From a virus: a DNA stretch of 59,301 nucleotides. The translations under genes and the position numbers were made by a program. The stretch spans positions 1 through 59,301 of the IMG/VR virus record IMGVR_UViG_3300033155_000832. One strand, 5' to 3'. The notes under the pieces were generated by a model, which worked only from the letters and a program-made list of their open reading frames with translations, did no database searches and was not told where the DNA came from. Each line of letters opens with the position of its first letter. Positions within the stretch are counted from its first letter, which is position 1. Shown piece by piece: positions 18,829 through 47,081 of the stretch.

Positions 18829-21800
18829 ATATTTTCTCGTAGTGTCTGCCATCCATTATACGACGCACGAGGTTCTGCGTGTTGGACGGTCTGGTCGGTT
18901 ACTTGGTCGGTTACTTGGTCGGTTACTTGGTCGGTTACTTGGTCGGTCACCGGTGCGGGGTCACGCACAGGCGCTGATAGCGCTGTTACCGCCTCAGGAT
19001 GTGTAAGTGCATTATACACACTTCCACAAGCGCTGTCAGCCACGTCTTTAGAGCCTTTACCGCCCTTCGAGGATAGTGCGGGGTGATCAACCTTATAGCG
19101 CGCGCCTCCTCCTACGCCTCCCGAAGTTACGTGGTGTCGCTGTAGGTCAACCATTTCGTTCTCGAACCACGAGTGGTGTGCATACCGCACGCGCCGCTCA
19201 AAGAGTGCGTTACGTAGTGTCATGTACTGCGTGTCGTCTCTATCCACCGACAGGATCTCTGCGGAGAAGCCCGCGCGCTTCAGGAGCTGGACGCTGTCTC
19301 GCGACTGGAAACCGTCATACGTCGTATGTGCGATGCGGTAGAACTGTGCGAGGTACTGTATCAGGTCGCGTAACTTCCATAGTGCGATCTCGCCTGCGTT
19401 GGGGGGCACCACCCGAAGCATGAAGTCGATTTCCACGATGGGCTTGTTTAGGTACGTCTGTGTGCCGTCAGGCAAGCGCGCCTGCGTGCGTAGCGTGCCG
19501 ACAGGGTGTGCCATGGATATGCCGAGGGCGTCACCTGTCAGGCCGATGTCGATGTGAATGAAACGTGGTTTGTCTGGGTGCCGTTTCGGGGTGTAAAGCC
19601 CGTCGACAATGTCGCAGACGCGCAACGGTCGGAAATAATGGCTCAGCGGTTCTTCGTCTAACGTAGTGATCGACACCTCCTCGTGTGCCCACGGGCTAAT
19701 CACATCAGGGTCGACGCAGTCTAAGAGAGACTGACGGTCAGGTACTAGCGGGCTGACGTTGAATGTGGCGATGCCTGCGATGTCACGTAAGGACTGGTCA
19801 GGGTCGCGTTCGAAGTCCTTGCGAAACTCGGAAGGGACGTCGATGATCTTAGCCGACGCGCGTGCTTCTTCGTCCTTGCCCATGATACGAGTAGGGTGCA
19901 TCCGGTCACCCACTTCCACGCGAAAGCGCGCTTTACCGAACTTATGTGCGCCTTTTATCTCCCACAGCCTGTAGTCACTGACGTACATATTCTTGCCGAC
20001 CTGCCCTCGAATACCCTCCACCATTCGTGTGCCCGCCTCTTCCTGTATCCTCTGCTCTAGGAATGACGTCTGTGCGTTCTTAGAGGACATGAGCATGCAG
20101 AGTCCGGGAACTTCTCCGCCGGGGCGTGCGAACCGGCTCCGAATACGGGTTGACGTACTCGAGTAAAGATCATACGCCTGTCCGACTTGCTTACCCGCGG
20201 CGACGTCGCGCTTACTGCGCATGAAGTTTACTTCGTCCATGGCGTAGGAGTAAATGTTGAGGCCTATCGCGTGCAGGTTTGAAGAACCACTTACCACCCT
20301 CACAGGTATGTGCGTAGTGTTCGTCCATGACATCACAGAGTCGATCTTGCGGTTTCGTGGAAAGACTTCACGGAAGTACGGGGAGCGGTCGACGTTGCCC
20401 ATCATCATAGGGTAGCCGGAGCCTCCGACCTGCCCTTTCGTGATCGAGTACAGGCCTAAAACAAACATGGAGTTACTCGGTAGCCCGTAATAATCAGCTG
20501 GGGACTTAAGGCACGACAGCCGGTAAAGGATGTAGGTCATAGCCAGCATAGCCAACGTGGTTTTGCCGACGCCAATAGCCCCCGTATTCCCTGAGATAAT
20601 ACCGTCGCGACCGTTCGTCGAGATCGCGAAATTACCGTAGTCAGGGACGGTTAGGCAGTATACGTGGTCTATTTCAGCTTTCCTTATGGATACGACCTTA
20701 TGGTTGCGATAACCATGCCTAACGTCGCGGATCGTGAGTCCTGCGTCGCGAAGTATCCGCACCACTGCGTTACGCGAGATCTCAAGCGCGGTATAAACGG
20801 CACTTAGGTTTCCGTGGGTGTCGTAACTGTCGTATATATCACGCACAGAGACGTCCCTCCGTACCTTACTTGTATCCTTGCCCCACGTGTTCCCTATGCT
20901 CCGTAACGAGCATCGTAGTGACGCCTCACGGTGCTGTTCTGGGTCTGACCAGCGAACGGCATTGCCCTTCTTACCTGCCACGGAACAAGATAGAGGTGTA
21001 TTAACCTTCTGCGCGTGTTCGAGATTACTGATCGCAAGAGCACGCCCCTTGGCTGTGTTCATGTACTTCTTGTGGCCTTTTCGTATCGGAGAGTGGGGGT
21101 CGTTGCATGCTATTGTCTGCCGTAGTGATGCTCGTTTTCGCGAGGCTTCTGTCGGCCCTGCCTGTCGGTGTAGCTCTCTGTGGTCGCCCCACCCCATCCA
21201 ACGAAGATTTTCGGGACTGTTGTTTCGTTTGTCGAAATCTACGTGGTGGCAGACGGCACGGTCGTACCCGTCCGACCCTTCCCACGTCTTAGGACACGTA
21301 CCGCCTGTGTGTTCCGACGCCACCATCCTGTGCGTGTACTCCCAAGCCTTTGTCCCTGTGCTATAGACCTGCTCATACCCTTGCAAGCGTTGTCCTGTCT
21401 GTTTCTTGTCCCTTGTCAGGAACGGCATGAGGGCGTCGCCTTCCTTTAAGTCACGTAGTCTGCGCTTGGTGCCGTCGTGGCACACAAACTCGTGGTCTGC
21501 GTTCGCCTTGACGGTACTGCCGTCATCCAACGTCAGCTCGTACAGTTGGTCTTTTGCGAACTTAGTGACGCGTGTGCACTTCCCTGAGCGCATGTTACCT
21601 GCGGTGTCTGCGGAATACACCCAAAAGTCGTCACCCTTGTCTCCGTACTCAGCGTAAAGCTCTTTGAGTGTGCGCGTACGCCCGTCGAGCAAAGGAACAC
21701 GAGTGTCTCCGTGCAGACAGAGTATCCATTCTGATATGGTGGAGCCGGGTGCGAAGATGTGCTCTAGGTCGCGTATCCAAGGATCGGCCAGAATATCGAG

Positions 21801-32308: not shown

Positions 32309-32337
32309 ATTGTACAGTACCGTACAGTCTTTGTCAA
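32309..32337 (-). promoter_or_regulatory. Sigma70-like promoter with palindromic spacer
   Basis: -35 TTGACA (32332-32337), 17-nt spacer, -10 TACAAT (32309-32314). The spacer lacks the family AAGTGTG next to the -10 but contains GTACGGTAC; a GAAGTGTGT copy sits just upstream of the -35 inside the last codons of the polymerase. The -35 overlaps the polymerase stop. It drives the UvsY-like gene, SSB and onwards. Confidence 0.75.
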
Positions 32338-35300
32338 CACACTTCATTATATTTGTCAGATAATTCTAATAACTCTTCGAGGGATTGAGGTTCGCGGGAT
32401 TTCAGCGCGCCTTCTTCGTACCAGTAAAGGTCGTCATCTCCTCCGGTACCTTGTACGGTGTCCGGATGAAAGCCTACCATGGCACCCCACGTTCTCCCTG
32501 CCTCCACGTCCGCCACAATGGGGCACTTCAGCCAGTCCCACTCCGCTAGTGGGAGTAGGTCGCCTGCGAGGTGCATCACCGTCTCCATAATCGTCGTCAC
32601 TATTTTCGCAACATCGGTTACTTCGTGTTCAGGGCAGTCTAGGATTATCGAGTCGTGTACCGTGAGGATTAAGATAGATTTGAACCCGCCCTCGCGTAGT
32701 GCGTCGTCAATCAGCACCAGCGACAAGAGTGTCATATCCGAAGCGCCTGACTGTATTGGGAAGTTAGTCGACTGTCGAAGTGCTCGGCTCACGACACCGC
32801 GGTCAGAGCTCTTCACAGCCGGTAAGCGTCTGCGTCGGCCTGTGTAAGTCTCAAGGTACCCTTGCGCCTGTGCGAGGTCTTGTGTACCGTCCAAACCGCG
32901 TTTAAGTGCTTTACGTGCGGCAAAGTAATCACGGATAAGGCGTTGTGCCTCTTTTTCGGTGATGTGCACTCCGTCTTTTTTGAGCGTCTTGCGCAGTGCT
33001 GGCGGTCCGGCACCGTACAGGATACCGAAGTTGATCCGCTTAGCGCGTGTACGCCACCCTTTGCGTTCCTTCTCCGGCAACTTAGCAAACGCTTCCGGAG
33101 ACAGCTTACTTATGTCGATAGCCGTAAGCATGTGCAGGTCTTCGCAGTCGACATACGCCTTCAACATTTCCGGCTCATTGAACCAACTTGCGGCGATACG
33201 GAGCTCAACCTGTGAATAGTCCGCCTGTAGTAGCATGCCGGTCTTGCCGTGGCGACTTACGTACGCGTGTTTAGCAGACCCCGGGATATTTTGCAGGTTC
33301 GGCTGGCTAGAGCTGAGGCGACCCGTAGCGGCGCCTGTGGGGTTGAAACGCCCGTGGATCCGGCTGTCAGCGTCGCGCATGGTTAGCATCGGCTCCACGT
33401 AGGTACCAAGCAACTTAGTGAGCTTCCGGTATTCGAGTATGAGCTCGACAAGGCCTTCGTCGCCCCCGTCTTCACTGATCTCTTCGAGAGCGGCGGCATC
33501 GGTTGCGAAGTGTCTCCACTCCTTTTTGTTCACTGCGTCAATCACCACGTCACTGAATTCCACCGTGGCGTCTGCTTTACTCTTCTGCTGGTAACGGTAG
33601 GTAAGCGTATCCTCGCCCGTCTTCGTGAGCGAATAAGGCGGAATATCTAAGTGCCCGTAGAACAGCTTCTGCAACTGCGTGGGACTGTTGGGGTTGAAGT
33701 CAGGGACGGTACGTGTTACCTCGCCCGTACGCTTGTGTGTCTTCTCGACTGCGTTCTCCATCCGGAAACGTAGTACCACAGGGTGCCCCGCCAAGTCCGC
33801 CTCTAACTGCCTAACTTGTGGCTCCAGCTCCGCCTGCATGCGTAATACCACCGACTCGTCGACCGTGGCGCCTGCGTACTCCATCCGCATGAGCACATCG
33901 GATAACCGCGGTAAGAACGACTCAGCGAGGTCGTGCAGTTTTAGGTTATCGACATACTCTGCGTCTTCCTGCATCTGGTGGTAACATTGCAACGTGCAGT
34001 CGGTGTCCGCCGCCGCATACGGAAACAAGACGTCTGCGGGGAAGCATGCGTATGACCCGCCCTTGCGCGGATCGCACAGCGGTTGTTCTTTTTTGTACCT
34101 GTCGAGGTCGCTGTCGTACCCGCCCATGTCGGTGTATTTATACGCTAGGAGCTTCAGCCCGTGATTGCCCGGCACTTCGTCGATCGTCATGTGCGTGAGC
34201 ATCGTATCCAACGGGTCGGGCGGGTAGGTGCCGATCGCACGTAGTATGTGCTGTTGATCAAACTTAGCGTTCTGGGCGAGGAACGGCACGTCTGCGTTAA
34301 ACAATCGAACTAGCGCCGCAGTTACGCGCGCCCTGTCGTCTTCGCGTTGTTCAACATCTTCGGTTAGGTACGCGTGTTGCTCTGTGTACCACGCCACATG
34401 TTTCATAGCGGCGTCGTACGCGATGGCACCCGCTGTGAGTGTGGTCTTCTCTTTGTCCTTGTACCTGCGCTTAGGCTCCGAAGGTATTTGGAATGATGGA
34501 AGAGCCTGCGGTAACGCCCACGGACTCTGTACATGGTCGTACGGTATGCAGTAACCGTATCCTACTTCGTTGGTGAATGTAAAACAGAGCAAGGAAGGGA
34601 ACCCGTTAGGAACATGCGAATTCAACCTACCTGTCTCAGTGTCGTAGGCCACCAACATCCGGTCTTCGATAAAAGCATCTACCATGTCCTCGACTTCTTC
34701 AGGCGTAGTGAGAACCGTATACTCCCCCATCTTACTGCCTATCTCACCTCCGTCACAGACATCGTCTATCGTACTTATGGCGGTCAGCCAATCCTCGGTA
34801 AACTGGTCAGCGAATATGATGTACTCTGCCGTGTTTAACGCCAGCACCGGTACGTCTTCGTACCCTTCGAGGATACACGACAGTACCGCTCCGTGTAAGC
34901 TGGTTATGCCTTTTTGCCCTGTCAGTACTTCAAGAGACGTAGCACCCACAGCGACAAACATTTCAGGCGCGAAGTGTTCTACCTGCTCTAAGAAGCCTTC
35001 GGCACACGCCTTGACCACTGTCTTTGTCGGGTTCTTAGACCGGAACGTACGACAGCCCGCGACGTACGCAAAGGCGTGTGTGTGTTTGACGCGTGCCCTT
35101 GCCTCACGTTCTAGGAGCTTGCCGGGTCGTCCCGCATTCGGCTTACCTGTGCCGTCTTCGTTGCCGTTCGGAGCGGGCAGGACAAACAGCACTTCAACAG
35201 GGTCGGGATACTTGTCCATAGCCGTGAATCCGTGCGTGCGGACTTCGTGCGGATCCTTAAGTGCTGATATGATTTTCTTCGCGTCACGCTTGTACCTGTA

Positions 35301-35447
35301 GTCACCTTGCCCCGCCTCGTGGTCGGCCTTGGCGCCTTGTTGGTACTCCGCGAAGTCTGCGTGAAGAGGGAACAACGGGCAGTACGCGCAACCTGTACTC
35401 TTCGCAGGGTCAGGGTCAATTACGTTTAAGTGTAGATCGTTACTCAT
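32334..35447 (-). CDS. Family A DNA polymerase fused to an N-terminal family-4-like UDG domain, 1037 aa
   Basis: Residues about 15-225 match 4Fe-4S uracil-DNA glycosylases: CAYC (C20, C23), a GEAPG-like loop PNGNEDGTGKPNAGRPGKLL, then two further Cys (C132, C148) spaced as in the cluster, and PEMFVAVGATSLEVLTG. The usual HPxxLL-type histidine near the domain end reads NTAEYII (Asn for His). A 3'-5' exonuclease domain follows (YDTETG, QNAKFD, YAAADTD), then the polymerase: motif A LLQADYSQVELR (about 740-750), motif B KRINFGILYG, motif C LTVHDSIILD. ATG 35447 has GGAGG. This is the phage replicase; the UDG-like part could sense or exclude uracil. Confidence 0.93.
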   Translation of the reverse strand: MSNDLHLNVIDPDPAKSTGCAYCPLFPLHADFAEYQQGAKADHEAGQGDYRYKRDAKKIISALKDPHEVRTHGFTAMDKYPDPVEVLFVLPAPNGNEDGTGKPNAGRPGKLLEREARARVKHTHAFAYVAGCRTFRSKNPTKTVVKACAEGFLEQVEHFAPEMFVAVGATSLEVLTGQKGITSLHGAVLSCILEGYEDVPVLALNTAEYIIFADQFTEDWLTAISTIDDVCDGGEIGSKMGEYTVLTTPEEVEDMVDAFIEDRMLVAYDTETGRLNSHVPNGFPSLLCFTFTNEVGYGYCIPYDHVQSPWALPQALPSFQIPSEPKRRYKDKEKTTLTAGAIAYDAAMKHVAWYTEQHAYLTEDVEQREDDRARVTAALVRLFNADVPFLAQNAKFDQQHILRAIGTYPPDPLDTMLTHMTIDEVPGNHGLKLLAYKYTDMGGYDSDLDRYKKEQPLCDPRKGGSYACFPADVLFPYAAADTDCTLQCYHQMQEDAEYVDNLKLHDLAESFLPRLSDVLMRMEYAGATVDESVVLRMQAELEPQVRQLEADLAGHPVVLRFRMENAVEKTHKRTGEVTRTVPDFNPNSPTQLQKLFYGHLDIPPYSLTKTGEDTLTYRYQQKSKADATVEFSDVVIDAVNKKEWRHFATDAAALEEISEDGGDEGLVELILEYRKLTKLLGTYVEPMLTMRDADSRIHGRFNPTGAATGRLSSSQPNLQNIPGSAKHAYVSRHGKTGMLLQADYSQVELRIAASWFNEPEMLKAYVDCEDLHMLTAIDISKLSPEAFAKLPEKERKGWRTRAKRINFGILYGAGPPALRKTLKKDGVHITEKEAQRLIRDYFAARKALKRGLDGTQDLAQAQGYLETYTGRRRRLPAVKSSDRGVVSRALRQSTNFPIQSGASDMTLLSLVLIDDALREGGFKSILILTVHDSIILDCPEHEVTDVAKIVTTIMETVMHLAGDLLPLAEWDWLKCPIVADVEAGRTWGAMVGFHPDTVQGTGGDDDLYWYEEGALKSREPQSLEELLELSDKYNEVC

Positions 35448-36522
35448 CGCTCCTCCCACAGATCGTAGAGACCGTGTCTTCTATGTTCTTATAACTCAAG
35501 CGCGAAGCGCCCACACGTTGTGTGCGTCTCTTTATGTTCGTCACAGCGCGTTGAACACCTGCCAGCAGGGTCAACGGTGCTCGGGCATCCCACAGGCGTG
35601 CGAGGTTGTCGCGCTCATCCCACGGGTCACCCTCTTCTAACGGTAACCGTGTGATCGGTACGTCAAGGGTGGTGAGCGGGGACGCCACTTTCGCTTCGTC
35701 TGCGTCCACATCGGTCGCTATTACTATCTCGGTGGTGCCTTCGTCGACCAGTTGTCGCATGAGCTGAACTTGTGCGTTACTGACTCGCTTACCTAAGAGC
35801 GCCACCGCAGGGATACCGATAGAGTCGAAGGCCATCATATCGAAGGCGCCTTCTACGACAACCACGACAGGCGCCTTGCGTGCGAGGTCAAAGCCCAGTA
35901 AGCATTCGTCTTTTGTGTAGTGCCCTGCATCGTTAGGAGGGTTGAGGGATTTCTGGTCGTGCTGTCCACAGTACCTGTTCGTCCAGTACACCAGCTCGCG
36001 ATTCTGCCATACGGGGAATATTAACCGCTTCCTGTATACCCCTCGCATGCACAGCCCTATGTCGTGACGCGCCACATGCTGATCGTCCGCGCCCCGTCTT
36101 TCCAAGTATCGCCAGCCTGATCGGTTTCGGATCGTCTTACGTTCTCGGTTCAACCACACAATCCCCTCCGGTAACGGTACGGGTCGCAAGGCACCTCGCA
36201 AAACGGACAGCGGATACAGTGTGTTGATTACGGACTCGGACAGGCGTGCCACCTTGTCGGCTCGTGCTTCTACTCCTAGATCCTCGATGTCTGCGTCCGA
36301 ATACCGCCTGCCCGTCACGTCGGATAGAATACGGCGAACAGATGACGACGCGTACTCACAGCGAAAGCAAATCGCTTTGCCTTTTTTCGCGTTGATGCGT
36401 AGTGTCTGTTTCGACGATTCTGAACCCTTACGATCAAGGCAGAACGGGCATTGGAACTGGTACTCAGGTGCGTTACCGCCTGCGGTACCTAAAATATCTT
36501 CGACAGTGTAAATCCACGACAT
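35440..36522 (-). CDS. DnaG-like DNA primase, 360 aa
   Basis: N-terminal zinc-binding CPFC (C25, C28) and CFRC (C52, C55), a linker with WRYLERRGADDQHVA, then the Toprim domain: VVVVEGAFDMMAF with E224 and ATDVDAD with D271 and D273. Synthesises RNA primers for the lagging strand. The stop overlaps the polymerase start by 8 nt and its ATG touches the helicase stop, so primase, helicase and polymerase form one block. It lacks a clear helicase-binding C-terminal domain, consistent with its short length. Confidence 0.92.
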   Translation of the reverse strand: MSWIYTVEDILGTAGGNAPEYQFQCPFCLDRKGSESSKQTLRINAKKGKAICFRCEYASSSVRRILSDVTGRRYSDADIEDLGVEARADKVARLSESVINTLYPLSVLRGALRPVPLPEGIVWLNRERKTIRNRSGWRYLERRGADDQHVARHDIGLCMRGVYRKRLIFPVWQNRELVYWTNRYCGQHDQKSLNPPNDAGHYTKDECLLGFDLARKAPVVVVVEGAFDMMAFDSIGIPAVALLGKRVSNAQVQLMRQLVDEGTTEIVIATDVDADEAKVASPLTTLDVPITRLPLEEGDPWDERDNLARLWDARAPLTLLAGVQRAVTNIKRRTQRVGASRLSYKNIEDTVSTICGRSDE

Positions 36523-38420: not shown

Positions 38421-39239
38421 TCACCATAAATCGGCATATTTGTTGATAATAGTGGTAGGCACCCGCGGGCTAGGTTGTGTGCGTGGGGTTTCCTTCTGCT
38501 GGATGTATGCCACGTAGTCGTCCCATTTCGTCCCTAAGTCAGGCACCGAGGCTCCGACGTGCGGGGTAAGTACCTGCACAGAAGCGTTCCAGAATACCGC
38601 ACGTTCCAGCTCGCCCGCGTCGAAGGTTTTCAGAGTCTGCAGAACCTGCCTATCTGCTAGCACCCCTGCACGCGCTTGCGATAAGAAGCGCCGGTACACT
38701 CGCCACTCAGGACTTCGCAACTCTTGCGCGTACAGGAACGGGCGTGGGTTATCTCCGAGAGCTGTGCACACGTAGTCGAGCGCCGCTTGTCCCTCATCGT
38801 ATATGATCGCCTGTAGGAACGTGCCCGACTGTGTGCGACGTGCTAAACCATCAGACCGGTCGGTCTTCGTGTGGTCTTTTTGGCGCCTATTGTAATTACT
38901 TGCGCGCTCAGCGCCTCCTGCGCTCGACAAGTAGACGGTCTGGAAACCGTACTTACGTACGCGGGGAGCCTGTCGCAGGTACTCCATATTTGCACGGCAG
39001 TATACGCCAAAGTCGATACCAAGGTCGTGTGATGTGTGCGTCGCACGTGCCAATGATTCTATGTCTTTAGGTGCGGGAACCCATGTGCCACGCCCGCGGA
39101 CGCCTCGAGGCGGGCGACCGAAGACCTCGCTGTGCGCTCGTATGTAAACGTCTAAAGGGTCGGACGTGATCTCCTGTGCCACTGCGGTTGCGCCTAATAA
39201 AGCGAGCGTCTGTGTGGCTGTCGCTATGATGTTCACCAT
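38421..39239 (-). CDS. Hypothetical protein in replication operon, 272 aa
   Basis: ATG at 39239 overlaps the UvsW-like stop (ATGGTGA). The start is hydrophobic (MVNIIATATQTLALLGATAV then AQE), which could be a signal peptide or short membrane anchor. The remainder is mixed helical with YGFQTVYLSSAGGAERASNY and a basic patch QKDHTKTDRSDGLARR. No family recognised. The position between two helicases suggests a replication link, but a signal-like N-terminus would argue for export. Confidence 0.6.
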   Translation of the reverse strand: MVNIIATATQTLALLGATAVAQEITSDPLDVYIRAHSEVFGRPPRGVRGRGTWVPAPKDIESLARATHTSHDLGIDFGVYCRANMEYLRQAPRVRKYGFQTVYLSSAGGAERASNYNRRQKDHTKTDRSDGLARRTQSGTFLQAIIYDEGQAALDYVCTALGDNPRPFLYAQELRSPEWRVYRRFLSQARAGVLADRQVLQTLKTFDAGELERAVFWNASVQVLTPHVGASVPDLGTKWDDYVAYIQQKETPRTQPSPRVPTTIINKYADLW

Positions 39240-41845
39240 GCGTTGAACTCCAGCGGGTCGTCGCATTTAACGGTGGTGATCGCCACCGAATATTCCTCGC
39301 GTTCGTAGTGCTCCGCACGATCCGCCGCTTGGTCTATCAACATAGGACTGCCTGTGGGTACCATGTCCACCACCAACACATCGTCTTTCCCTCCAGCTTC
39401 GAGCCTGCGACCACGCCCTATGCGTTGGATCGTTGACTGTACGCGACGAACACCATCGGCTAGGATAACCGCTTCTATCGCGTCCACGCTCTCGCCTTCG
39501 TCGAATACAGTACTCGCGAGAATGATGGGTACGACCTTGTCTTCAAAGTCCTGTTTGCTTTGTGTACGTTCTGCCATCGGTACCTTGCCGTCCACGCGCC
39601 TGAAGTCTAGCTCGTAACGCCTAAGGTATCGCGCGATATTATCAAGGTGGTCGTGTCTGCGGGCAATGATTAGCGTAGGTCGACCCTGCTCTTCAACCAT
39701 GTACTGTGCAATCCGTGCGATACAATCGTTATAGTGCGGGCACTTGACCACATAGGTTGCATACGCGTCTTGATACGCGGACACCCCTTGTTTTTTCGAT
39801 ACCATTTTCGCCGCGTAGTGCGCACGTAATAAACTGATCTTGTTCTCTTTCGGGAGGGCTTTGACCGGTGGCTCGTATAACAACATCTGTATGCGTTCGT
39901 TTGCGACAAGGCCTAGGCGCTTCAGCTCTGCGTCTTTGACTTCGTACACAATGTCACCACAAGCGGCGATCAGTTTCGCGTCCTGCAGTGTGTCGTACCG
40001 TAGGGGCGTTCCGCTCATTCCGATACGCAGGCGCGCGCTCTTAGCTCGCTGGAGCGTGAGCTTATAGTACGTATTCGCAGAGAGGTGGTGCACTTCGTCG
40101 TTGATTAACATGCAGGCGTTTTGCACCAAATTTACGATAGGCCTGTACTTCTTCTTCATCTTGTTTTTAAACGCAACATCGAGCGAGGCGGAGGTGGCCA
40201 CAACAATGTCGCCGGGTATGAACACACCTCCTGCGATAGATCCGACCGTGGGCTCGCCTTGTTCGTAGTAACTAGATAGCGCGTTAACCGTCTGCGTCAC
40301 CAGCCCCTTTTTCGGAACCACCACGAGGATAGGCTGTTGCCACTCGCAATAGACCTTCAGACACAGTAACCCAATCATAGAAGTTTTACCTGAGTTATGT
40401 GTAACTGTGAAGTCGGGCAAAAGGTAACGGTGGTCTTTGTCAACTGTGAACCCTACGAACGCGCCAGCACCCACAGGCGTTACTGTAAAGGCCGACCGTA
40501 GTACGTCCGTGCGCCGCACATAGGGTGTGATTCGTTTCCTTGGGATCCGAACTGGGATGTCCCATATAGCACCCGATATATACACCCGATAATACTTACG
40601 CCCGTGGACGTATTTGGCGGTGCTAGCGGCGTAGAACCCTACACTGCGGGCAACGAAAACGACATCATCCGCTAGCTGTTTCGACACACTGCTGAACTCG
40701 TACGTACTGCACCTGTCACGTATATTCGCGGAACCGTCTGTGTCTATTAAACCTGCTAACACTGCCAAACGATTAGCACGTGTTGCGTATTTATACTGTT
40801 CAGGTATGTATTTATGTGAGCACGTAAACGAAGGTATGCCTGCGTCTAATAGCTTCTTCTTCAGTTTATTAGGCACACGTGCGTTTCGCGTAGGGTTGAC
40901 GATACTGAAATAGGACGCGCGGTTGCCTCTGCTATCTTCTCTGCGATTCACCTTCATACCGAGGTCGTTGGCTAAGGCATAGACCGCTTGGGATATTTCG
41001 TCGTCCATCGTAGTAACCATAGGTGTACCGCTTCCTAGGCTTCCGTCCCCTAGCAGGACGCCCATCATATAAGCGGGGATAGGTTGCGTACTTTGCGGGC
41101 GATGGAAGGTGTCGACAGGCACCTTGAAGAGTTTATGTATGTGCTTCTGTGTCTTACTCCACTTTATGTAGTCAACAACCGGCACATCTAATACGCTGTT
41201 GTCCAGACAGTTCTTAAACACGCGGAGGCGTTTCTTGCACGGGGTACGGACGAGTGTGAGAGGGTGTGTGCCTGTTACTGTGAACGGGTCACCGCGTTGT
41301 GGTGTAACCTTGTACAGATCTGCGACCCCTTCATGGCGTACTAATACACGTCGTGGTGTACCGTCAGGCCCCATTAGGAGATCGCCTAACTGAACATCTT
41401 CCACGTACGCGATACGCCCGCAGGCGCGCATAACTCGCTCCCCGTACGCGTGACAAGATGTTGGGCTCTTCACGATACCACCGCCCGCTTCTAATACAGC
41501 ACGAGTCGCATCGTAGATATGGTCATAAACCGGCACACGCTTGTCTCCTACGGGTACAGTCATGTAGTCGACAGTCAGGTCGTCTAGGTTAATATCAACA
41601 CGGTCGCTGTTGCTGATTTCTGTAGTATGTCCAGCGTCTTCTAAATACTGAACAACCTGCGGTACCATCCCATGCGGGACACCATGCTCATCGTCGTACA
41701 GACTGATTAGACCGTCCACACGGCCTTCCGCATACGCTGTAGTCGACTCCACGTTCTTATCGAAGAAGCACAGACAATCCTCGTATAACGCTAGATCACA
41801 ACCCACACGGGCGTATCCTTGTTTAATTCGTATCTTAATGTGCAT
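39233..41845 (-). CDS. UvsW-like SF2 helicase precursor with intein in Walker A, 870 aa
   Basis: N-terminal part (MHIKIRIKQGYARVG, EGRVDGLISLYDDEHGVPHG) resembles the T4 UvsW substrate-binding domain. The intein (131-484) splits the P-loop, which after splicing reads KSPTS-SGKTSM. Later motifs: LVVVPKKGLV, DEVHH (583-587), MSGTPLR, LIIARRHDHL, STVFDEGESVDAI and IQRIGRGRR. Spliced helicase about 516 aa. UvsW unwinds branched and R-loop DNA and drives fork regression. ATG at 41845 follows the -10 by six bases with no Shine-Dalgarno, predicting a leaderless message. Confidence 0.92.
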   Translation of the reverse strand: MHIKIRIKQGYARVGCDLALYEDCLCFFDKNVESTTAYAEGRVDGLISLYDDEHGVPHGMVPQVVQYLEDAGHTTEISNSDRVDINLDDLTVDYMTVPVGDKRVPVYDHIYDATRAVLEAGGGIVKSPTSCHAYGERVMRACGRIAYVEDVQLGDLLMGPDGTPRRVLVRHEGVADLYKVTPQRGDPFTVTGTHPLTLVRTPCKKRLRVFKNCLDNSVLDVPVVDYIKWSKTQKHIHKLFKVPVDTFHRPQSTQPIPAYMMGVLLGDGSLGSGTPMVTTMDDEISQAVYALANDLGMKVNRREDSRGNRASYFSIVNPTRNARVPNKLKKKLLDAGIPSFTCSHKYIPEQYKYATRANRLAVLAGLIDTDGSANIRDRCSTYEFSSVSKQLADDVVFVARSVGFYAASTAKYVHGRKYYRVYISGAIWDIPVRIPRKRITPYVRRTDVLRSAFTVTPVGAGAFVGFTVDKDHRYLLPDFTVTHNSGKTSMIGLLCLKVYCEWQQPILVVVPKKGLVTQTVNALSSYYEQGEPTVGSIAGGVFIPGDIVVATSASLDVAFKNKMKKKYRPIVNLVQNACMLINDEVHHLSANTYYKLTLQRAKSARLRIGMSGTPLRYDTLQDAKLIAACGDIVYEVKDAELKRLGLVANERIQMLLYEPPVKALPKENKISLLRAHYAAKMVSKKQGVSAYQDAYATYVVKCPHYNDCIARIAQYMVEEQGRPTLIIARRHDHLDNIARYLRRYELDFRRVDGKVPMAERTQSKQDFEDKVVPIILASTVFDEGESVDAIEAVILADGVRRVQSTIQRIGRGRRLEAGGKDDVLVVDMVPTGSPMLIDQAADRAEHYEREEYSVAITTVKCDDPLEFNAW
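40394..41455 (-). mobile_element. LAGLIDADG intein in the UvsW-like helicase (354 aa)
   Basis: Block A starts with Cys (CHAYGERVMRACGRI). Block B FTVTGTHPLTL has the TxxH form. Two dodecapeptide motifs AYMMGVLLGDGSLG and LAVLAGLIDTDGSA mark an intact LAGLIDADG homing endonuclease. Block F is GFTVDKDHRYLLPDF and the C-terminus VTHN is followed by extein Ser. All splice-site residues look canonical. Insertion point PTS/SGKT is in the Walker A loop. Confidence 0.95.
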
Positions 41846-41851
41846 CCCGTT

Positions 41852-41879
41852 ATTATACACACTTCGTATACGTTGTCAA
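41852..41879 (-). promoter_or_regulatory. Promoter for the UvsW-like gene
   Basis: -35 TTGACA (41874-41879), 16-nt spacer containing CGTATACG and ending GAAGTGTG, -10 TATAAT (41852-41857). Consensus in both hexamers. Transcription should begin at or next to the ATG at 41845. Confidence 0.9.
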
Positions 41880-42902: not shown

Positions 42903-45900
42903 TTAGCGGGCTAGGTATTGTGTGAGTAAATCGCGTCCTGTGTCTCCGACTGTTACGCCTGATTCTATACTGCGTACCGACGTTCCGACAGGGAACAAGT
43001 GTGCCACGCCTCGCATAAGCTCCTCAGACATCCGGTCGATTTCCGTGCGACTGTTGGTGGTAAACACCTGCCCACGTGCTGTCCGTAGGTCGACATGGAC
43101 TTGTCGCATAGGGCGCGCACTTGCGGGCGGGTTCGTGGGGTCGGTGTCTGCGACAACCCAATCGAGGGTCTTGGTGCCTGCGGGCAGTGTGTTGGTTGCT
43201 CCGAGGGTGTCGAGGAGCGCTTGGTCGGCTGGAGGTGCGCTTGTGTAGTCATCCCACTCAGTCGCAGAGTCAGGTACATAAATGGGGTGGACTATAGCCT
43301 GTATATTCATCGCAGACGCAACCGAGGACACTGCATCCGTCAGGCCTCGATACTGTACTGCGCGCTGTGAGAGGGCGGTGCCAGACCGTAGATCAGGTAC
43401 GTCGACGTGGTTGTACGTTTGCGCGAGGCGGTTGAGCACGGCTGTGGGAGCGCTCAGCGCGCCACGTACGTCGAGAACAGCGCGGTTGTCGTGTTGGGTG
43501 CGTGCGGTGTAGGCCGACAACAAGCGCGCAAGGTATTTATAGACCCCATCACGATCTAACGCGTCGAATACGCGCATATCCACGATCGTACGCTCGAACG
43601 CGGATACCCAAGGGAACCAGCGCGGAGCCTTCCAGCGGTATAGTCCGCCATCGGACGGTACGCCTGCGGGCGTGATAGGGATAAGCCAGACCACCTCAGA
43701 GAGCTCAGGGTATCGGAACACCCACGCGCCTGATGCTTGCATCACGCCCACCATATCAGCGCGGGCGCCATAGCGCTTCAGCCCGTCACCATCGGTAGGT
43801 ATGTAGTCGGCAGGTATCACCACTGCCTCGCCTGCCTGATAATTAACAGCCACGCTGGCTTCTCCGTACGTACGCGCGGTTACGGATCGTACAAGTAACG
43901 GGAAGAGCGGGCGGTGTCCGTCTGTGTCGTACCGATTCTCCGTGCTTCCGTCGTTAAGAGGGCTCAACTGCAACTGTCCGCCCATGGTAAGCAACGCATT
44001 GATCGACGTCCGATCTGGCTCGACATAAAGACTGCCTCCGAGGGTCGAGGTCGCAGTGAGGTCGGGTGTCTTGGTGACGACCGCCACGATCCATGTTACA
44101 GTGAGCGTGGCGGTACTGGTTATAGCGCCTTCGACGAATTCGTCGACTAAGAACGCGCCACCGACCGTGGCGGTCTCTGCGACATCCCCTGCGATTTGAT
44201 CAATCAGCTCCAGCGCGCCTGCGAGTGTTGCGGTTTCTACGGTGTCTCCTGTGAGGAGGGAGGCAATGTCAAACGCACCTGCTAAGGCTTCGGTTTCAGT
44301 TACAGCGCCTTCGACGGGGTACGTAGTGGGCAAAGTACCTGACAAGGCCTCGGTTTCTGTGACCGCGCCTGTTATGTCGGTGTTGAGGGTAAGCGCTCCG
44401 GTGAGTGCCTCAGCTTCGGTTATGTCGCCCGTTATTTCGGAGGCGGTCGCGAAAGCTCCGGCAAGCGTAGCGGTCTCGGCCACAGCACCTGTTATGTCGG
44501 TGTTGATGTCGAATGCACCTGCAAGCGTCTCGGTCTCAGCCACAGCACCCATAAGGAGCGAGGCAATCGTGAGCGCACCCGACAGTGCTTCGGTTCCTGT
44601 GATGTCGCCTGTCATTTGTATTGAGCTCTCCACTTCACCGCCCGACACAGCCGTTTCGGTGATGCCTCCCACTATGTCCGCGTTGACGTCGAACGTGCCT
44701 GACAGCGTCTCGGTCTCTGTAACCGCGCCTGCAATCGGGTAGATTACGGGTAACGAACCAGCAAGTGCCTCGGTCTCAGCAACCGCGCCCGCTATGTCGG
44801 TGTTGACCGCCACTCCGCCTGCCAGCGTCTCGGTTTCTGTGACGTCACCGGCTATGTCGGTGTTGATGTCGAAGGCGCCGGCAAGGGATTCAGCTTCCGT
44901 TACCGCCCCTGCTATCGTAGAGGTGATGTCGAACGCACCTGCGAGTGCTTCAGTCTCGGTGACTTCGCCTGCCACGTCGGTGTTGACCGCCACTCCGCCC
45001 GCAAGTGCTTCAGCCTCGCTCACATCACCTGTTATGTAGTGCCCTAATCCTACCTCACCACCCATAACCGCGTTTTTGCTGATGCTTCCTGATACTTGCT
45101 CTTCGAAGGACTCGGTCAACTCTTCGACCGTGGCGAGCGTACCTATCCGGTAAGAGCTGAGGTTGCTGTTTGCTAGAGGTACGAACGCGATCTCGGTGTC
45201 GACAGCGGGCGTGAACACGTGGTCGATCCCGTGAGTGTTCCATTCCCCACTGCTGTTCATTGTGTAGTTTAACGTCTGCATCAGGTTGACATCCGCAGTG
45301 ATGTCGTGGAGCTTTGTTTGGGTGTACCCAGTAGTCGTATATGCTCCGCGCTCTTCGAACCGCATACGGTACGTCTTACCTGCGGTCAACGACCACTGTC
45401 CTGTGACGGGGTCGTAAGGGATGGTTCCTAACCCTGCGGGGAATTTAATAGCCTCGCCTATGACGGGCACATGGGCGACCGTCAGCTCTTGGTACGCGAA
45501 CGCCTCGCGTAGCTTGCGCACGGTCATAAACGATGCGGTGGTGTACACCGACAGTGAGCTGTTCAGTGACGGGCGCAATCCTATATGTGTATCGACGGTC
45601 GGTTGTATTATCTTAGACACAGCACTTTCGCTGTGCCTGTTTGTGACGTTTGCGATTACGGCACGGACGTTCTGCTCTGCACCAATATAGGCGGATGCCG
45701 TGTGGTTGTATAGTCCCCACTGTGTACGTGCGGCGGAGCTGGTGGTTGTAAACGTACAGCCTAGTTGTGCCTCTATGATGTACGCCCCTCCGGCTTTGAG
45801 TAGTACTCTGCGCCGGTCATTGTCGGGTACGATGTCGACCCCGTGTGTACCTTTGAACGCCTCCCACGGGACAGACTGCCCTGACGGGTGGGTGGATTGG

Positions 45901-47081
45901 TTCACGAGGATCGAGAGCGTCAACGTCTCTTCGGTACCCGCCTGTCGCACCATAGCACGCGTCTCGCCTGCGTTAATAGTAGTGAGCCCGCCACGTGTGT
46001 CTAATATGAAGCCTATCTCCGCGTCCGCGCTCGGGATGACAGGTGCGTGTAGTATCTCCGCGCTGGCGCCTAGAGACGAGTACGACACCTCGCGGGGTAC
46101 CCCGTACTCGCTTGAATTCACGGAGGTCGTGTAGTTGCGCACACGCGTTACGATATAAGCGGCGTCGGCGCGTTCGGACAGGCGACAGAGGTAGTACTCG
46201 TAGGCCTTGACCTCCCAGCGGTATGTTCCTGCATTGAACCCTAAATTACCGTCGTCGGCAGTGTTAAACCGAAAAGGATCTCCGGGGTTGATACCTGTCG
46301 TCTGGTCGACCGACATAACCGCCTGCATGTGCAGGTTCTGGTTGGTACGCGCCCACGTGAGCTTGCGGTCTGCCTGTTGCATATCTGCAAGAGACATGGC
46401 GCTTGCGTGCAGGGCGGACACGTGCATAAGACCGTCGACAGCTTCTCCTGCGGGGGCTCCGGCACCTGCCATGACGTAGAACGAAGTTACCGCGGGTGTG
46501 AACCCTAGGTCGGCAATACCGCTGATTGTGTTCGTGAGATCAACCCCGTCCACAAACAGGCGTCTGTCCGCAGATAAGCGCGCAAATGACGCACTTAGTC
46601 GCATAGGAACACCCAGAGGCGGAGCGTCAAAGACCGCGGACACTTCGAGGACGTCGTCTATGTAAATGGCGTACAGTAACTTGGTATCATCGGAGTCGTG
46701 CTCACGGATACCTGCGTAGTCGTTCGTCCCTATGTCCGAGTATGACACCCACCCATCTAGGTCGGCTATCTTACGCGTGAACACTATTGTGTGTGCGAAG
46801 TCGGATGTATGAGTCGGATTAGCAACCCCGTGGTCATCGACTCCGTCGTACGCAGAGGAGAAGAACCCGTCCGCAGGCTTGTATATCTGCGAGTCTATGA
46901 CCGCGCCACTGGTGAGCGTCATATCGTCCGAGCCGATAGCGTCAACCAGCGTGGTACCGGTCGAGCCCGCGCCTCCGTATGCGTGGTCGTACCCTAAGAT
47001 AAGAAACTCATTCAAGAGCGTCGTCTCGAGCGAGCCTGCCATGGCGGTTAGGGGGGCGATGGCGCCTGTGATCGTTTCCAT
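42903..47081 (-). CDS. Large tail protein with LamG-like N-terminus and 16 tandem repeats, 1392 aa
   Basis: Residues about 30-250 resemble a LamG/concanavalin-like domain (YDGVDDHGVANP, FARLSADRRLFVDGVDLTN). Two or more related beta modules follow with WEVKAYEYYLCRL, AYIVTRVRNYTTSVN and TYRMRFEERGAYTTT. Then come 16 units of exactly 20 residues (about 683-1002; consensus xTGxVTETEALAGAFDIxTD), and a C-terminal part (about 1100-1392) with WVSAFERTIVDMRVFDALDR and LTDAVSSVASAMNIQAIVHP that resembles gpI-type tail proteins attaching to the baseplate. Probably a host-binding tail fibre or spike. It overlaps the upstream gene by one base. Confidence 0.8.
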   Translation of the reverse strand: METITGAIAPLTAMAGSLETTLLNEFLILGYDHAYGGAGSTGTTLVDAIGSDDMTLTSGAVIDSQIYKPADGFFSSAYDGVDDHGVANPTHTSDFAHTIVFTRKIADLDGWVSYSDIGTNDYAGIREHDSDDTKLLYAIYIDDVLEVSAVFDAPPLGVPMRLSASFARLSADRRLFVDGVDLTNTISGIADLGFTPAVTSFYVMAGAGAPAGEAVDGLMHVSALHASAMSLADMQQADRKLTWARTNQNLHMQAVMSVDQTTGINPGDPFRFNTADDGNLGFNAGTYRWEVKAYEYYLCRLSERADAAYIVTRVRNYTTSVNSSEYGVPREVSYSSLGASAEILHAPVIPSADAEIGFILDTRGGLTTINAGETRAMVRQAGTEETLTLSILVNQSTHPSGQSVPWEAFKGTHGVDIVPDNDRRRVLLKAGGAYIIEAQLGCTFTTTSSAARTQWGLYNHTASAYIGAEQNVRAVIANVTNRHSESAVSKIIQPTVDTHIGLRPSLNSSLSVYTTASFMTVRKLREAFAYQELTVAHVPVIGEAIKFPAGLGTIPYDPVTGQWSLTAGKTYRMRFEERGAYTTTGYTQTKLHDITADVNLMQTLNYTMNSSGEWNTHGIDHVFTPAVDTEIAFVPLANSNLSSYRIGTLATVEELTESFEEQVSGSISKNAVMGGEVGLGHYITGDVSEAEALAGGVAVNTDVAGEVTETEALAGAFDITSTIAGAVTEAESLAGAFDINTDIAGDVTETETLAGGVAVNTDIAGAVAETEALAGSLPVIYPIAGAVTETETLSGTFDVNADIVGGITETAVSGGEVESSIQMTGDITGTEALSGALTIASLLMGAVAETETLAGAFDINTDITGAVAETATLAGAFATASEITGDITEAEALTGALTLNTDITGAVTETEALSGTLPTTYPVEGAVTETEALAGAFDIASLLTGDTVETATLAGALELIDQIAGDVAETATVGGAFLVDEFVEGAITSTATLTVTWIVAVVTKTPDLTATSTLGGSLYVEPDRTSINALLTMGGQLQLSPLNDGSTENRYDTDGHRPLFPLLVRSVTARTYGEASVAVNYQAGEAVVIPADYIPTDGDGLKRYGARADMVGVMQASGAWVFRYPELSEVVWLIPITPAGVPSDGGLYRWKAPRWFPWVSAFERTIVDMRVFDALDRDGVYKYLARLLSAYTARTQHDNRAVLDVRGALSAPTAVLNRLAQTYNHVDVPDLRSGTALSQRAVQYRGLTDAVSSVASAMNIQAIVHPIYVPDSATEWDDYTSAPPADQALLDTLGATNTLPAGTKTLDWVVADTDPTNPPASARPMRQVHVDLRTARGQVFTTNSRTEIDRMSEELMRGVAHLFPVGTSVRSIESGVTVGDTGRDLLTQYLAR
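44076..45035 (-). repeat. Sixteen 60-bp tandem coding repeats
   Basis: Sixteen in-frame 60-bp units encode 20-residue repeats of the form I-A/T-G-x-V-x-E-T-E-x-L-A-G plus eight variable residues ending NTD in many units. Units 7, 8 and 16 are the most diverged. No indels break the 20-residue period, arguing for a solenoid fold under selection. Confidence 0.92.

Follow-up and report, generated by a model that had tools for sequence, protein, structure and literature searches.

The intein of known structure closest to the one described here, in structure as well as in sequence, is PI-SceI, the Sce VMA1 intein (PDB IDs 1vde, 1dfa, and 1jva). Both combine a Hint domain with a two-motif LAGLIDADG endonuclease, start with Cys1, and end with a His-Asn pair. 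The present intein, encoded in the 59,301-base virus record IMGVR_UViG_3300033155_000832 of IMG/VR (positions 1-59,301, the whole stretch analyzed, termed here the window), is however 100 residues shorter, exhibits ~20% identity with PI-SceI, and is inserted in the P-loop of a phage SF2 helicase, whereas PI-SceI resides in subunit A of the V-ATPase.

The preference of inteins for ATP sites is established (Kelley et al., 2016, PMC5050341), and ATP-binding proteins host 70% of the inteins of prokaryotes according to a figure quoted in another study (PMC5784728), in agreement with the general preference invoked by the initial annotation of this DNA. In mycobacteriophages, the TerL1-a and TerL1-b inteins occupy two P-loop positions one residue apart, and terminase inteins have been reported to be splicing-competent and endonuclease-active (Kelley et al., 2016, PMC5050341). 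Like the family described below, they use neighboring P-loop positions of a phage ATPase; unlike the helicase intein of the window, they are hosted by a terminase and sit at other positions. The standing question is whether inteins crowd ATP sites for splicing-based regulation or owing to the conserved DNA of these sites: a single case such as the present one is ordinary, while the family, as a set, makes the question testable.

Helicase P-loops of several sequenced phages (Salmonella FSL SP-031, Klebsiella YX3973, E. coli PJ16, Pseudomonas Touem01, and Vibrio 1.009.O) harbor full-length inteins of the same family, 35-36% identical to that of the window, some records being already annotated “intein containing helicase precursor”. 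Those of PJ16 and YX3973 share its insertion position, PTG/SGK (the slash marks the insertion point), while several others are found at GxGK/T, unlike in the window, and the host helicases belong to other SF2 families or are far from UvsW. Closest among the matches listed are the helicase inteins of phage contigs L096-L104, with 40-43% identity and the same position, PTG/SGKT; the helicase carrying them has no pairwise BLAST match with that of the window, both matching the broad PHROG 16 family. In the part of the literature covered, nothing direct was found on an intein in UvsW or in motif VI.

The split helicase gene

The host gene is an ORF on the minus strand (39233..41860, 875 amino acids when counted from GTG 41860) that contains the intein in frame. 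Judging from the starts of its orthologues, ATG 41845 is the likelier start codon. The N-extein (41456..41845, minus strand) ends, by reading of the junction, with GGGIVKSPTS, the first half of Walker A, while the C-extein (39236..40393, minus strand) starts with SGKT, providing Ser at position +1, and carries the helicase motifs to the C-terminus. A Pfam search of the ORF places ResIII and Helicase_C domains on either side of the insert. The helicase matches PHROG 16 “DNA helicase”, and the profile of its family has T4 UvsW as best PDB match (2oca, E 2e-38, positions 23-503), followed by XPB/RAD25. The similarity of the profile with 2oca extends over the whole length of the helicase, and UvsW of phage KVP40 is also matched (tblastn, E 4e-8). 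Since T4 UvsW is the top PDB match of the profile, the label “UvsW-like” given to this helicase at the outset is right.

The gene stands at the head of a replication block, followed by DnaB, primase, and PolA homologues in an order shared with relatives. In front of it lies a sigma-70-like promoter, TTGACA-16-TATAAT (12/12; 41852..41879, minus strand), one of the 12 copies of TTGACA-N-GAAGTGTGTADAAT found in the window against 0.74 expected, which span 183-42136 and are all on the minus strand. Gene position and promoter class suggest that the helicase is expressed with the replication block. The expected +1 of the promoter at 41852 is the A of ATG 41845. To note, a start codon also falls at the expected +1 of the promoter at 183, which suggests that the mRNAs issued from these two promoters may be leaderless.

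The intein and its empty site

The insert (40394..41455, minus strand) comprises residues 136-489 of the 875-residue ORF and runs from TGT (Cys1) to AAC (Asn354), the +1 codon being TCA (Ser). The junctions read KSPTS/CHAYGER on the upstream side and FTVTHN/SGKTS on the downstream side. The 354-residue LAGLIDADG intein that the initial annotation saw splitting PTS/SGKT is thus exact to the residue, as judged by the junctions, the reading frame, and Pfam, whose matches within the insert are all above cut-offs (Hom_end_hint, 1.4e-14; LAGLIDADG_3, 5e-11; Hom_end, 1e-8). From the N- to the C-terminus, it is formed by a Hint splicing part with Cys1 and the block B motif TGTH, ending at His64 (41141..41455, minus strand; PF05203, amino acids 1-105), a first LAGLIDADG motif, YMMGVLLGDG, with catalytic Asp137 (41042..41071, minus strand), a second, LAGLIDTDG, identified by Pfam, with catalytic Asp240 (40733..40759, minus strand), and the splicing blocks F/G terminated by VGFTVDKDHRYLLPDFTVTHN, with His353-Asn354 (40394..40489, minus strand), assigned by junction reading and homologue alignment. 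C1, H64, D137, D240, H353, and N354 are invariant across 70 aligned homologues. Block B position 61 is a Thr in the window intein and an Asn in 68 of the 70 homologues; TxxH is the textbook form of this block. All the hallmarks of class 1 (Cys1, T61-G-T-H64, H353-N354, and Ser+1) being present, the insert is, by its sequence, a class 1 bifunctional intein with every known catalytic residue.

A search of the PDB with the intein sequence retrieves PI-SceI (E 3e-12). The AlphaFold model displays a mean pLDDT of 94.6 and a pTM of 0.92, and PI-SceI accounts for each of its 11 best Foldseek matches in the PDB, with TM values of 0.71-0.80 over the query and a best E of 6e-24 (TM 0.76). A PI-SceI fold is therefore confidently predicted.

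The orthologues of the helicase were reached through the polymerase gene, L013 first and then the others. Once joined, the exteins align end to end with the uninterrupted 527-residue L013 protein (31% identity), whose gene precedes DnaB, primase, and PolA homologues in an order identical to that of the window. In total, 12 syntenic orthologues span the site without an insert of such size (L013, L015, L016, L017, L021, L022, L024, L025, L026, L028, L030, and L033), and the partial orthologue L018 is likewise devoid of an insert of intein size. The empty site reads KSPTGSGKT in L013 and KSPTSSGKT in L016, KLPTGSGKT being also found among orthologues. The joined P-loop, SPT[GS]SGKT, aligns without gaps with those of L013, L015, L016, and L017, and L016 contains, unbroken, IVKSPTSSGKT, identical to the joined site of the window. 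The C-extein alone, used as query, found no relative among the viral contigs searched. Base composition was also considered as a sign of recent arrival, with 51.7% GC in the intein, 48.9% in the N-extein, and 53.0% in the C-extein, and is uninformative.

A PI-SceI (VMA/HO)-type bifunctional class 1 intein has thus very probably invaded, by homing, a UvsW-type helicase gene of a phage at its Walker A codons. This reading is carried by the exact junctions, the intact splicing and endonuclease residues, the confident PI-SceI fold, the empty sites of the orthologues, and lineages that mostly keep one P-loop sub-position, while the precursor and the splicing and homing steps that follow are modeled on knowledge of the family. 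The helicase would be translated as a single precursor unable to bind ATP, as its P-loop is split, and helicase activity would have to wait for splicing. Cys1 would undergo an N-S shift, Ser+1 would then accept the N-extein, and Asn354 would cyclize, aided by His353, joining the exteins as KSPTSSGKT to yield a normal helicase of 516-521 amino acids. Once freed, the intein would, in co-infected cells, cleave the joined P-loop codons of helicase alleles devoid of an intein, and recombination would then allow it to spread.

Endonuclease decay is common among inteins, and the present one could be a fixed passenger that still splices with a dead endonuclease. The best relatives of the window intein, among the matches listed, are 43-44% identical to it, too distant to establish recent or ongoing homing. 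Decay is nonetheless unlikely: both catalytic Asp residues are intact, as are Lys215 and Lys307, common to most of the family, and the model, of high confidence, contains an endonuclease domain of full length. As the two catalytic LAGLIDADG Asp residues are invariant in the 70 homologues, the intein is probably competent for both splicing and homing, bearing in mind that intact catalytic residues may also occur in an inactive protein.

Insertion position and lineage

The window intein belongs to a large family found in P-loop ATPases of phages and bacteria, with PT[GS]/SGKT or GxGK/T as insertion sites. A relative is encoded in 425 phage records, including phages of Salmonella, Klebsiella, Vibrio, E. 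coli, and Pseudomonas in which it interrupts a helicase P-loop, and matching stretches number at least 500 in viral contigs and at least 460 in genome contigs. Among 83 distinct full-length inteins, 50 are inserted at xxG/xGK[ST], 31 at GK/[ST], and two a few residues upstream; both main classes fall within Walker A, the sites of a few members of the GK/T class resembling a P-loop only loosely. Bacterial and archaeal members reside in P-loops that, named by motif only, resemble those of DnaB (ARPGMGK/TAF) and of AAA ATPases (GPVG/SGKT).

On the tree of these 83 inteins, the insertion position changes 7 times, versus 27 with shuffled labels. For the 59 rows with related SF2 helicases, the intein tree requires three changes of position, as opposed to 10 for the extein (helicase) tree. 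The trees are quick and contain long branches, the window intein itself being a long branch with unsure placement within the intein tree, and it is with moderate confidence that intein lineage can be said to track insertion position better than host gene. In contrast to L096-L104, with the closest inteins in an unlike helicase, helicases of the same kind as that of the window (L152, L154, L175, L139, and L172) have inteins that are less related to its own and inserted elsewhere. Grouping all inteins of UvsW-type helicases as one clade was marginally rejected (p-AU 0.04), a result given little weight owing to the long branches involved and to the choice of the group after viewing the extein tree.

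One member of the family departs from the P-loop. In viral contig IMGVR_UViG_3300025117_001303 (L095, 4859-5860), a LAGLIDADG intein of the same family interrupts helicase motif VI at ACGGK/SVIAALQRIGRG. It groups with the GK/T inteins of L148 and L174 (support 99), and the stretch hit, unbroken in L077, L092, and L094, mimics a P-loop. Together with insertion positions that follow lineage and nearest inteins residing in unlike helicases, this insertion favors, with moderate confidence and from sequence comparison, homing to a DNA target common to P-loops, rather than a role played by the intein at the ATP site; the DNA target is also favored by the retention of one sub-position within lineages across a change of host gene, and by the jump to motif VI. 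The quick trees and their long branches limit the confidence to that level. A fuller scenario is plausible, albeit tentative: each lineage would be tied to one Walker A sub-position and hop between ATPase genes by means of an endonuclease reading P-loop DNA, with misfires into look-alikes such as GGK/S in the motif VI of L095, and the window intein would have hopped into the uvsW-type gene from another helicase.

Two of the contigs in which motif VI is unbroken exhibit endonuclease-free mini-inteins in motif II of their UvsW-type helicases, at DE/CH and DESH/C (L077, 788-3181, and L092, 3890-5716).

Regulation and the second intein

The same genome encodes an unrelated 378-residue HNH-type intein in the large terminase (20586..21719, minus strand; SEWIL/TGAIGVGKT), which matches HNH and intein_Nterm and has few phage relatives. 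The second intein of a different endonuclease class proposed at the outset is thus real. Its suggested location at a P-loop, like that of the helicase intein, needs correction: the helicase intein lies inside Walker A, while the terminase one, when aligned with the uninterrupted TerL of phage SIO-2, falls next to the P-loop, one residue before its first Gly.

From this pair, the initial annotation suggested that effects of redox, temperature, or stress on splicing could coordinate late functions. In the corresponding switch, the intein would be kept because splicing of the helicase, and of the terminase, senses such conditions and thereby times late functions. Conditional splicing has precedents: oxidative stress and zinc influence mycobacterial DnaB inteins (PMC6195587, PMC7360933), and a P. 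horikoshii RadA intein is under the control of its extein (PMC5790916). The split P-loop also ties helicase activity to splicing, and the predicted dependence of the helicase on splicing, also part of that proposal, follows from it. Coordination of late functions, in contrast, runs against the position of the gene in the replication block, not in a late block, and its strong sigma-70-like promoter, no sign of late control being seen around the helicase in either gene position or promoter. No conserved redox device was seen either, as C12, C73, and C249, the intein cysteines checked beside Cys1, are not conserved. The helicase and terminase inteins are unrelated, and their comparison revealed no shared feature linking them. 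Finally, absence of the intein from the 12 site-spanning syntenic orthologues indicates that its effect is dispensable to the lineage. Taken together, such a switch is very improbable, and the presence of the intein at an ATP site is best read as the result of a conserved DNA target and the difficulty of loss, rather than of regulation. A chimeric contig joining a LAGLIDADG gene to a helicase, an assembly error conceivable a priori for an IMG/VR record, is largely refuted and hardly credible given that the insert is in frame, occupies precisely the codon boundary at which dozens of relatives are inserted, and has termini coinciding exactly with both junctions.

Phages with several inteins are not special. 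Contigs L078 (1799-4750) and L089 (1865-4783) each encode one UvsW-type helicase with two inteins, a LAGLIDADG intein at Walker A (GK/T) and a mini-intein at motif II (DE/CH), and L089 harbors a further intein in the adjoining DnaB-like gene.

Two other genes of the window, both on the minus strand, deserve mention. A UDG-PolA fusion (32334-35459) joins a uracil-DNA glycosylase-like domain (PF03167, TIGR00758), at the N-terminus, to a family A DNA polymerase, and a long structural protein (42903-47081) contains numerous tandem repeats of the form ITGAVTETEALAGA.
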